Source: Halopseudomonas laoshanensis (lineage in GTDB: Bacteria; Pseudomonadota; Gammaproteobacteria; Pseudomonadales; Pseudomonadaceae). From it: DNA of 64,000 nucleotides. The notes under the pieces are model-generated. The model did no database searches. It was not told where the DNA came from and worked only from the letters and a program-made list of their open reading frames with translations. Positions 46,367 through 51,962 of the stretch are shown here, piece by piece (position 1 is the stretch's first letter; every line of letters starts with the position of its first letter). The stretch covers positions 868,001-932,000 of the forward strand of contig NZ_QOVF01000001.1 in NCBI RefSeq assembly GCF_008365385.1, in the 5' to 3' direction. Made by a program: the position numbers and the translations under genes.

Positions 46367-48222
46367 TCAAGCGAGCCGTCGAGATTGTCCGCTTTGTCGG
46401 GTCATGCCGGCCTTGTCGAAGTATTCCAGAACCGCGACGCTGTGATTGCGACCGATGCCGCTGTGATCGCGGAAGCTTGCCGTGCTGAATTGCCCGTCAT
46501 CCTGTTGCCTTGCCAACTCGCCAGCGACGCTGAGCAAGTGATCAACGCTTGCCGGAAGCAGGTAGCGATTGCGTCCCACGCACGCCAGTAACCCCAGGGC
46601 GCTTAGTTTATCCAGCCTTGTCAGTAGCTCGGCCTTGTCCAGGTTCAAATCAGCCATCAGCTCGCCGATAATAGGCGGGCGTGGGGCGCAAGCGCTGAAG
46701 GCAGGCTGCAGCTGCTCGAACCATTCCAGACTTTGTGCATCGGCTTGGGGTTGATGGCCCGGCAAGTGCAGGTTGGGACCGCTTTGCTGCAGCATGTGCC
46801 GGTCAAGTGCATGGCGAATCACCGCGCTCAGTAGTCGACTCCTGATAGGCAAACCCAGATGTCTTGTGAAGCGCTGGCGGCTCATGCCAGCCTGATCGGG
46901 ATGCTGAAGATGATGCGCGGCTAATGCCGCCAGCAGACGCTGCAGACAATGTTCGAAATCGGGCTGCCTGCAAAGCCAGCCAGCCACGCGAAGAGTTTCT
47001 GGATGCCGTGCTCGCCCAGGCTCGATGGTCAGGTGCCGAGCACGCATGAAACGGCCCAGATCTACGCCGTCGGCCAACACGGCCAGCAAGTTCTGCAGAG
47101 CCTGATCAGCATCGGAAGCATCCACGGCCACCAAGGCTGCGAGACGTTCCGGTCGTTGCCGGCCCTTGCTCTCGGCAAAAGGATCAAGCACCTGGCCGCT
47201 GCCAAGCAGCTTGCGGCTCGCTGGGTCGCGGATGATAAACCGCTCGCCGTAACGGCAACATACGGGCCGGTCCAGAATCCACTGTCCGTAGTGCTGATCT
47301 GCGGTTAACGGCTCGCCCCTCAAGGGAACACAGCGGGCGTTGATAACCGCATTGCCCATATGCAACTGCAGAGTGCCGCGATTGGGCAGGCGGGAGATCA
47401 GCTGCAGGCGTGCGTCCAGGCAAGCGGTCGGCGCGAAAATGGCTGCGTCGAGTAATTGACTGCCACGGGTCAAGTCCGCGCCCGCCAGGTCGCCCACCAG
47501 ATTCAACGCGCAGCGCTGGCCTGCATGGGCGGCACTAGCTGCCCGACCGTGCACCTGTATGCTGCGGATACGCAAGGAAGCGCCGTTATCAGATAGGCGA
47601 AGAACGTCACCGATCTGAGCACGCCCGCTCAGCAGGGTGCCAGTCACGATATCGCCTGCGCCCGGCTGGCTGAAATGGCGGTCGATGCTCATCCGTGCCG
47701 GCCCTTGGTCATCCGCCGGGGAAAAGCTTTCGGCCCAGGTGTTGAGCTGCTCGACAAGCGCAGCCATTCCATCGCCGCTCAGACTATCGAGCAAAAAGCT
47801 CGGTGGTTTATGAACAGCTAGCTCAGCCAGAAGCTGTAAGATTTCTTGCTGCACGTGCAAGGCACGCTCGTTAGTGACGTTGGCGCATTTGCTGATGACC
47901 ACCAGAACAGGTCGGCCGCCGAGCAACTTGAGCACTTGCAGATGCTCCAGCGTTTGCGGCATAACCCCGTCATCCGCCGCGACCACCAGCATCACCGCGT
48001 CCACACACCCCATGCCGGCGAGCAGGGTGCGCATGAATTTTTCGTGGCCGGGTACATCCACCAGATCAATCGTCTTGCCGTCAGCGCAGTCCATCCAGGC
48101 GTAGCCCAGCTCGATACTCATGCCGCGGCGCTGTTCCTCGGCGGTACGATCAGTATGCTGGCCGGTTAGCGCCTTGATCAGCGCCGTCTTGCCGTGGTCA
48201 ACGTGGCCGGCGGTGGCGATGA

Positions 48223-48226
<4 letters not shown>
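46367..48226 (-). CDS. selB: Selenocysteine-specific elongation factor SelB
   Basis: A 619-residue GTPase that brings Sec-tRNA to UGA codons by binding the SECIS hairpin. G1 motif GHVDHGKT at 7-14, DVPGHEKF (G3), SKCANVTN (G4-like), translation-factor domains 2 and 3, a SelB-specific fourth part with winged-helix repeats (the last about 550-615) that bind SECIS. It overlaps selA by 4 bp and completes a locus that also holds a selenoprotein gene. Confidence 0.95.
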
Positions 48227-49632
<1,406 letters not shown>

Positions 49633-49690
49633 GGAACACTAGCCTCGTGAAGTAATGCGAAGCAAGACGACTGGGTGAGATTGGTGTTCT

Positions 49691-49799
49691 GGGCGGATGC
49701 GGGCACCCCTGTACAAGACACGCAGCAAGTACGTCCTTGTAGCTCAGCGATGCCGTCCCTGGCATCGATGGTCTTGTACAGGGGTGCCCCCATCCACCC
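49691..49799. repeat. Nested inverted repeat between the UGSC gene and selA
   Basis: Outer arms of 29 bp (49691-49719 and 49771-49799) match at 27 positions, including a perfect 19-bp core GGGCACCCCTGTACAAGAC (49701-49719). Inside, CGATGCC-GTCCCT-GGCATCG (49748-49767) forms a second hairpin. It fills half of the 222-bp gap between the selenoprotein and selA. It could be a dispersed palindromic repeat, or a processing or attenuation element. It contains no tRNA(Sec) features. Confidence 0.65.
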
Positions 49800-49854
49800 T
49801 GACTGAGCACCGAGTTCAACAGCCTTCATGCACGGGCTGCAAGGCCCGCCACCA

Positions 49855-50385
49855 TCACGAGCCTTGCAGCGTTAACGCCTCCAAAATGCTCTCGAAAGCG
49901 TTGTCGGCCAGTGCGCGCAATTCGTCATCGGTACGGTCCTGAATCGGGTGAGGAACAAACACCATTTTCGGGTCCATGCCCAATGCCTTGGACTGCAGCG
50001 CTGCCGCTTCAACAAATTCGCTGGAAGCTATGCCTACGCCGGGGATCTGCCGGCCTTCCAAGTCGCCTATATCATGCATACAGCACGAGGTACAGGAGCC
50101 TCAGTCAGCCAGACCTTCCACCAGCAGATCACACTCACTGGCGATCTGTTGTTTCAGATCCGTGGGGGCAATACGTGCGAAAGTAGGTTTGCGATAGCGT
50201 TTTACCTCGATGCCGCGCTCGCTGAGCAGCTCATCCAGACGGTCCAGCAGCACGTTGCCACGTGCTTTGGAAATATCCAGCAAGCCGACAGTCAGGCCCT
50301 CCAGTGTGGCGGGTCTGGCCGTCAACGCGCGGCTGGCAGCCGAGCGTTCAGCGGTCGGGTCGAGCAATACGGTCGGCGATATCAT
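49855..50385 (-). CDS. UGSC family selenoprotein (in-frame UGA at codon 95 read as Sec)
   Basis: Read through one TGA (50101-50103), this frame gives 176 residues. Before it: GLTVGLLDISKARGN ... IASECDLLVEGLAD; after it: U95-G-S-C98-T-S-C101-C102-MHDIGDLEGR, then VPHPIQDRTDDELRAL. UxxC is a selenolthiol redox motif, the signature of the UGSC family. A SECIS-like hairpin follows the UGA, and selA-selB are directly downstream. The ATG has AAGGAGG with 7 nt spacing and overlaps the stop of the upstream gene (ATGA). Automatic annotation would split it into 94- and 74-residue ORFs. The C-terminal motif recalls subunit B of glycine/proline reductases. Substrate unknown; translation ends at a second UGA (49855-49857). 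Confidence 0.88.
50066..50096 (-). promoter_or_regulatory. Bacterial SECIS element
   Basis: In the mRNA, bases +5 to +35 after the UGA fold: lower stem CCUGUA/UAUAGG (6 bp, one G-U), bulge CC, upper stem UCGUGC/GCAUGA (6 bp, one G-U), and a five-base loop UGUAU at +19 to +23. The G in loop position 2 and the distance from the UGA meet the known rules for bacterial SECIS recognition by SelB. Confidence 0.75.
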
Positions 50386-51818
50386 GCCGTTACCTCCTTG
50401 CTAACCGGGGTGGAGCCAGTGGGTCCGGAAGCGGCCCAACCAGCGATAACAGCGGAAAACAGACCAGCCGGGCCACCGGCCCTGACGATCAGTAATCCAC
50501 CAGGTCGAAACTTGGGTAGATCGGCGCCGGCAAAATTCTCCGGCATGCCCTCGGTAATGTCTTGCGCACCCATCACCAGATCCTTGCCCGGCAGAGTCAG
50601 CAGGCGGGTAAGCTCTTCGTGCAGGCGCGCCTTGCTCCAGCCGGCATCGGTAAATACCCGGCAGTGTTCGGGTGATATTACCAGGATGGCGTCGCCGTGC
50701 ATGACCAGCTTGTAGTGATCCACCGCGCGCAAGGACAGGGCAAAACTGCGGGCCAGGGATTCGGGGGTGCGAGACTTCTGATCGACGATCGCCTGTACGC
50801 CTTCGCCAGCAAATAGGGTGACCACCGATTGGTCTTTGCTGAAGCCACGTTCAACGGCCAGAGAATCCCACTCGCTGTCTTCCGCTTCAGCAAAACAGAA
50901 GCTGTATTTGCCGGGGTTGCCCATGGTCGCGCGATCGATTTCGCCGGGGCGGCCACCGCCGACATTGCGCACTACCAACTGCAGCGCGCGGCCAATACTG
51001 GCATTGGCACGGTTGCCCTGGCCCAGGCAATTGACACCGGAGTTCATGCCAATACGTTTGGCCACGGGGCCGTTGACCAGCACCAATGGACTGCCAAACA
51101 TCGTGGTGCAAAGCAGCCCATGCATGCCGAATTCGTCAATCAATGCAGCCTCGACTGCGGCGATGACCACAGGCATATATTCAGGTTTGCAGCCGGCCAT
51201 GACCGCGTTGATCGCGACTTTTTCCACAGTGCAGGGCACCAGATCCGGCGGCATCAAACCGAGCACTTCGTCGGCTTTGCGCTCGGTGCCTTGCAGCATG
51301 CTGTATACGCGTTCAGGGGTCGGCGGGACGACGGGAAGGCCATCGCTCCAGCCGCGCTCATGACAGGCTTCTATAGGATCTTCGCTTTCACCGATTTCCA
51401 CTTCGCGAGACTGGAAGGTAACGGCGCCAAAGCGGATTGCCAGCTTCTCTGCCATACCCGGATCCTGGGTTTTCGACCCGCAGCCGGGGCGGGAAGGGGG
51501 CAGGTCGGAGCCAAGCCCAGGTATGCCGGTCAGCTCCTCCCAGTCTTCACGGAACCAGCCGTAGGTGCGACTCTGCTCCTGACCGTTGGCGCGTTGAATC
51601 AAGGTGGGGACGATTTCACAGTCCAGTTGCCAGGACCACTCCAGCGTATCATCCTGGATCTGTTGGCCAGAGCCAACATCAAAGTCGGCCGTGTCCTGCA
51701 CAATAACCGTGAGCGGTTGATCGCCACTGGCCAATTGAGCGAGTACAGGTTCGATCAAGGCGCAGGTCGGGCAAGCGCGCTTGAGAATAACGATGAGTCC
51801 ATCAGGTAATGTTTGCAT
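50382..51818 (-). CDS. Thioredoxin-domain protein fused to a large domain of unknown function, UGSC partner
   Basis: A 478-residue cytosolic protein. The first 80 residues are thioredoxin-like (LPDGLIVILKRACPTCALIEPVLAQL, CxxC = CPTC); the remaining 350 form a domain I cannot name, with conserved-looking stretches WSDGLPVVPPTPERV, FGMHGLLCTTMFGSPLVLVNGP, NSGVNCLGQGNRANASIGRALQL and NPGKYSFCFAEAE. It overlaps the selenoprotein start by 4 bp, so the two are almost certainly made together and may form one redox complex. ATG 51818 lacks a good ribosome site; the frame is open to a GTG at 51911. Confidence 0.75.
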   Translation of the reverse strand: MQTLPDGLIVILKRACPTCALIEPVLAQLASGDQPLTVIVQDTADFDVGSGQQIQDDTLEWSWQLDCEIVPTLIQRANGQEQSRTYGWFREDWEELTGIPGLGSDLPPSRPGCGSKTQDPGMAEKLAIRFGAVTFQSREVEIGESEDPIEACHERGWSDGLPVVPPTPERVYSMLQGTERKADEVLGLMPPDLVPCTVEKVAINAVMAGCKPEYMPVVIAAVEAALIDEFGMHGLLCTTMFGSPLVLVNGPVAKRIGMNSGVNCLGQGNRANASIGRALQLVVRNVGGGRPGEIDRATMGNPGKYSFCFAEAEDSEWDSLAVERGFSKDQSVVTLFAGEGVQAIVDQKSRTPESLARSFALSLRAVDHYKLVMHGDAILVISPEHCRVFTDAGWSKARLHEELTRLLTLPGKDLVMGAQDITEGMPENFAGADLPKFRPGGLLIVRAGGPAGLFSAVIAGWAASGPTGSTPVSKEVTA

Positions 51819-51962
51819 ACCTGAGTTGTAGCAGTTTGAGCGCCACAGGCAAGCACTATCATTGGGTTTGATGGTGCTCGCCCACTGTCGTATATCGAGA
51901 CGGGTGTGCACCTTAGCTTGCGATGGCTAAGCTGTCTCACTGTGGTATTTCCGCAGGGCCCT

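Follow-up and report, generated by a model that had tools for sequence, protein, structure and literature searches.

Within a 64,000-nucleotide (nt) stretch of the Halopseudomonas laoshanensis genome (contig NZ_QOVF01000001.1, positions 868,001 to 932,000; hereafter the window), an earlier reading of the sequence alone proposed a hidden selenoprotein of the UGSC family, split by an in-frame UGA. The frame runs on the minus strand from 50385 to 49855 and comprises 176 codons and a terminal TGA; it has a sole internal TGA at codon 95 that is followed directly by Gly-Ser-Cys, just as that reading had it. Taken as a stop, the internal TGA would leave two open reading frames (ORFs) of 94 and 74 residues. 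The ATG overlaps the stop codon of an upstream gene (ATGA), here called the partner, and the 3′ end of a Shine–Dalgarno-like AAGGAGG lies 7 nt ahead of it, in keeping with the near-perfect ribosome site noted earlier. Downstream on the same strand are selA, 222 bases beyond the UGSC gene, and selB, the selenocysteine (Sec) machinery genes that had likewise been placed there (Table 1).

With Sec given to HMMER as Cys, the read-through product scores above the curated cut-offs of the two family models, NF041046 (UGSC family (seleno)protein) and PF24696, and so belongs where the sequence-only reading had put it. Each half also matches by itself: the first 94 residues align with positions 2–68 of the NF041046 profile (E 5.5e-15) and the last 74 with positions 77–147 (E 6.7e-16). 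Since these are consecutive parts of one profile, the TGA sits at the Sec of the family, which is more than chance would give. NF041046 is the model assigned to the UGSC-containing protein in a passage of a 2026 review (PMC13188914). Across 20 fetched genus loci, the window among them, substitution rates at codon positions 1, 2 and 3 are 0.147, 0.095 and 0.466 before the TGA and 0.123, 0.067 and 0.402 after it, a pattern of purifying selection that is alike on both sides and that bears out the claim of protein-like sequence throughout. Taken with the presence of the decoding machinery, homology and conservation make it almost certain that 49855..50385 encodes a true UGSC-family selenoprotein.

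Table 1. Features of the UGSC locus (coordinates are those of the window)
Feature	Coordinates	Strand	Basis or detail
UGSC-family selenoprotein gene	49855..50385	-	176 residues, Sec at residue 95; NF041046 153.8 bits (curated cut-off 125), PF24696 149.2 bits (curated cut-off 25)
Sec-encoding TGA, codon 95	50101..50103	-	sequence; Cys at same position in L110 and 6/7 plasmid homologues
Shine–Dalgarno-like AAGGAGG	50393..50399	-	sequence
Partner gene	50382..51821	-	N-terminal thioredoxin-like domain (CPTC, residues 17-20) and ~360-residue domain
bSECIS-type hairpin	50066..50096	-	apical stem UCGUGC/GCAUGA, 50088-50083 with 50077-50072; loop UGUAU
Long palindrome, UGSC–selA interval	49690..49800		-81 kcal/mol, z -11.3
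selA	48223..49632	-	TIGR00474 579.7 bits
selB	46367..48226	-	TIGR00475 356.8 bits

Within the genus, the UGSC gene is found in 27 of 37 genomes, every one with a single internal TGA, and 20 of these 27 loci were fetched. A scan of named genomes gave 439 relatives, the best 80 of which were fetched, and an even sample of the phylum gave a match in 5 of 398 genomes, two of them over the cut-off, the window's genome included. Together these sets hold 105 fetched loci from several phyla (that of the window included; some species may be represented twice), with TGA as the Sec codon in 103 and TGC in two. One of the TGC loci (L110) is, to judge from its sequence, a clean Cys homologue: it has the motif CGSCTSC, is 44% identical, scores 120.5 bits (just below the NF041046 cut-off) and retains the partner, in a genome with no over-cut-off SelB. 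The other (L112, 86.3 bits) has a TGA at a different codon further on and also comes from a genome with no over-cut-off SelB, and for these reasons is possibly a broken gene. A search of plasmids added seven homologues, of which six have Cys (three from haloarchaea and one each from Roseovarius, Arthrobacter and Embleya); the seventh, on Acidovorax plasmid p2-T1, has TGA. The natural homologues with Cys at position 95 that the earlier reading had proposed looking for therefore exist, and nearly all others keep TGA, so that the case it had counted as fatal, no homologue with Cys or Sec at this position, does not arise. In the GOS aquatic metagenomes, UGSC was counted in 255 Sec and 21 Cys forms and ranked among the commonest selenoproteins there, according to figures given in PMC2398784. 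The expectation that standard annotation loses such genes holds in part: in Acidovorax sp. T1 (L163) the annotated coding sequence, labelled ‘hypothetical protein’, goes no further than the TGA, but NF041046 at NCBI already covers the family, so the loss is not general.

The genome contains all four components of the Sec machinery. In addition to selA and selB, selD (430.8 bits) lies about 22 kb away and a tRNA-Sec (72.8 bits) is found elsewhere; within the window itself, ARAGORN detected no tRNA and Rfam at gathering thresholds gave no match. SelB is over the cut-off in 28 of the 37 genus genomes, namely the 27 with UGSC and one (G030) in which the contig ends inside selA and the presence of UGSC cannot be judged. 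All 27 UGSC-bearing genomes have SelB and none of the nine genomes without SelB has UGSC (Fisher p 1e-8, a value that overstates independence because the genomes are related). Outside these, SelB is over the cut-off in two genomes with TGA forms (G175 and G347) and not in two with TGC forms (G179 and G313). Among the 80 named loci, many of whose fetched stretches end at contig ends, 36 include selB, 34 selA and 39 either gene. FdhA is over the cut-off in five of the 37 genus genomes, with TGA in three of the five, and is not over it in the window's genome. As TGA-type FdhA is over the cut-off in only 3 of the 27 UGSC-bearing members (other selenoprotein families were not searched), this suggests that UGSC and its partner may be what keeps the Sec machinery in the genomes of this genus. 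In three of the genus genomes (G016, G020 and G029) two SelB genes are over the cut-off: one stands roughly 300 bases from a formate dehydrogenase of the TGA type and its counterpart roughly 100 bases from UGSC, which gives the impression of two Sec islands within one genome.

Directly behind the UGA lies a hairpin of the bacterial Sec insertion sequence (bSECIS) type, by way of which SelB with Sec-tRNA would read the codon. It has a six-pair apical stem, extended in this species by a lower stem, a loop with G as its second base and 18 nt between UGA and loop; its energy is -13.7 kcal/mol for 41 nt (z -2.1, with z from -0.8 to -2.9 at other folding lengths). The structure falls within the published rules (loop of 3–9, G in the first two positions, spacing of 16–37 and minimum free energy (MFE) <= -7.5, as set out in part of PMC13188914), and MFE folding places 101 of the 103 TGA loci within them as well. 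Over 74 distinct sequences the core stem is 97.5% paired and the apical pair, which is formed in all, is C-G in 70, U-A in 3 and G-C in 1; a covariation score as high was reached by none of 500 shuffles. The Cys gene L110 has not kept the hairpin, its best fold presenting another loop, with no G in the first two positions, 11 nt after the codon (z -1.1). Two results speak against leaning heavily on this element. At 240 of 1236 other codon positions, sampled in every fourth gene (27 of the 105), these hairpin rules, which are lax, are also satisfied, so that the rule is weak alone even if the enrichment is large. Covariation is modest, with both-sided change in two of seven pairs; as many such pairs turn up in 47 of 500 shuffles. 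Further downstream, the near-perfect palindrome between UGSC and selA has a core of ~57 bases that recurs, in partial form, at five other places in the genome, and looks like a dispersed intergenic repeat.

A homologue of the partner stands beside UGSC in 104 of the 105 loci, upstream in 102 and downstream in two, the remaining locus being cut by a contig end. Residues 2–100 of the window's partner have a thioredoxin fold with a CxxC motif; its start was set at ATG 51821, since most of the homology sets in close to that codon, whereas GTG 51911 is the start in the ORF list. The ~360-residue C-terminal domain has no family model in Pfam or NCBIfam, and a PDB sequence search with it found nothing (best E 0.22). 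Two cysteines of the partner, Cys211 and Cys309, are invariant. Two of the partner relatives that lack the thioredoxin fusion adjoin trxB. Kinship of the C-terminal domain with class I fumarase was suggested by the top Foldseek rows, at a TM of 0.23, but found no support in profiles (hhalign P 0.02 over 33 columns) and was set aside. The TGA-type UGSC on the Acidovorax sp. T1 IncP plasmid p2-T1 (L163:8640-10247), near IS1071 and IS91-type transposases, seems to be joined in frame with the partner domain; from this fused form, we infer that the partner is the Unknown_1 of the UGSC/Unknown_1 fusion mentioned in PMC2398784. Variations on the pair also occur. Genome G175 contains a pair of TGA-type UGSC genes (L121 and L122) that are divergent in sequence and lie far apart, each with a partner homologue and the second with two partner-like ORFs, and a Halorientalis litorea plasmid (L166) has a Cys-type UGSC with a partner-domain gene on either side.

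What kind of protein UGSC might be is indicated by its predicted structure and by profile comparison. Its AlphaFold2 (AF2) model has five strands alternating with helices, and the structural matches listed are mostly flavodoxin- or Rossmann-like, with no thioredoxin among them, an absence that does not by itself dispose of a thioredoxin fold; a PDB sequence search with the UGSC profile found nothing (best E 0.44). The fold is thus predicted to be flavodoxin/Rossmann-like, contrary to the thioredoxin-like fold suggested in PMC2398784. Against GrdB/PrdB-like selenoproteins, the UGSC profile gives a probability of 86 (E 5.1e-6) with Sec aligned on Sec, and the similarity persists with the active site masked; shuffle controls were run. 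UGSC also carries UxxCxxC, described as the GrdB motif in a passage of PMC13188914, the last Cys being present in 56 of 57 aligned members. A distant relationship between UGSC and the GrdB/PrdB selenoproteins is therefore probable. In the fetched GrdB-like relatives the Pfam GRDB match ends about at the Sec/Cys, and the model seems to be without the part behind Sec. GrdB/PrdB-like genes occur in 18 of 39 UGSC-bearing genomes searched, with up to eight matches per genome, and all 20 GrdB/PrdB-like loci read (L143–L162) have TGA at U-P-x-C.

In a passage of the 2026 review, the functions of a list of proteins that includes UGSC are called largely uncharacterized (PMC13188914). The likeliest mechanism, to which we give slightly less than an even chance, is that UGSC is a thioredoxin-driven, GrdB-like reductase. 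UGSC would then be a single-domain relative of GrdB/PrdB. Its Sec95, which opens the helix that follows the third strand, would act either as a nucleophile or as a reductant on a substrate that the large C-terminal domain of the partner handles. Sec95 would be oxidised to a selenenylsulfide with Cys98, and the thioredoxin domain fused to the partner would then restore it, drawing in its turn on thioredoxin reductase. In glycine reductase, GrdB binds the substrate and the electrons come from thioredoxin, according to a passage of the same review (PMC13188914). The neighbours of distant homologues, in varied neighbourhoods, include CoA transferases, enoyl-CoA hydratases, acyl-CoA dehydrogenases and carboxylate transporters (TRAP, TTT), which may point weakly to an organic acid substrate or to organic-acid catabolism.

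Other explanations have to be set against this. That the TGA is a nonsense mutation or sequencing error splitting an ordinary Cys protein would account for the two short ORFs, but is exceedingly improbable when 103 of 105 loci, drawn from several phyla, have a TGA at this very codon, selection is similar before and after it and the presence of UGSC tracks that of SelB. A thioredoxin-fold thiol oxidoreductase, as suggested in PMC2398784, acting as a general redoxin or peroxidase and not like GrdB, is unlikely: UxxC does resemble CxxC redox motifs and the fold has been put forward in print, but the AF2 topology and the listed matches are of another kind, and in profile comparison UGSC shows no significant similarity to the thioredoxin domain of the partner (P 0.19) but does so to GrdB-like proteins. 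A more serious possibility, albeit a doubtful one, is that the pair serves to handle sulfur or selenium, or has some other role with no relation to the chemistry of GrdB, with Sec as a redox switch only and the likeness to GrdB due to a shared Rossmann-like scaffold. Such scaffolds are common and the neighbourhoods vary; the Sec-on-Sec register, the similarity retained under masking of the active site and the linkage to thioredoxin argue the other way.

Several results count against a GrdB-like reductase. A common Rossmann-like scaffold can by itself produce many structural matches, UGSC has no match to the Pfam GRDB model PF07355 at E <= 0.1, an initial comparison, made against five GrdB-like proteins of the Cys type, yielded a probability of just 10%, and a few of the 20 rows added for the deeper profile run past a second TGA (L143, L153). 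No homologue of the UGSC partner was seen beside GrdB-like genes in 25 fetched loci, and no Pfam match to a pyruvoyl-type subunit in the partner (52 members) or nine stand-alone relatives. Thioredoxin genes are annotated near UGSC in two of six annotated plasmid loci. Apart from the partner, selA and selB, no neighbouring ORF cluster covers more than 11 of the 83 loci clustered, shadow frames included, and the substrate is for this reason a guess. With these points in mind, we put forward tentatively, and a shade less firmly than the reductase mechanism itself, that UGSC and its partner form a hitherto undescribed, thioredoxin-coupled, two-subunit selenoenzyme of aerobic bacteria, with a Cys version in haloarchaea, which may share a common stock with the GrdB/PrdB reductases, have a substrate-handling subunit not covered by any Pfam or NCBIfam model and carry out the reductive cleavage of an organic acid. 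The partner is an undescribed gene, linked to thioredoxin and a constant companion of the family, and such a companion, a built-in electron donor and likely kinship with glycine and proline reductases turn the function of UGSC into a testable biochemical question.

Among known systems, thioredoxin-fold selenoproteins share with UGSC the UxxC redox motif and, through its genomic surroundings, a tie to thioredoxin, but differ from its predicted fold. GrdB/PrdB (PF07355) resemble it in profile, Sec on Sec, and in having a Cys at +3 from Sec; UGSC is distinct in being a single protein of 176 residues without a PF07355 match at that threshold and with another partner gene, and the organisms that bear it are presumably aerobic. 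With the UGSC family (NF041046/PF24696) the window gene agrees in scores over both cut-offs, in the place of the motif, in having Cys homologues and in the bSECIS hairpin, and nothing in the protein itself sets it apart; in the window the partner has a fused thioredoxin domain and selA and selB follow. The gene is thus a further member of an already known family, and what is added lies at the level of that family: a constant partner, coupling to thioredoxin and a probable kinship with GrdB/PrdB.
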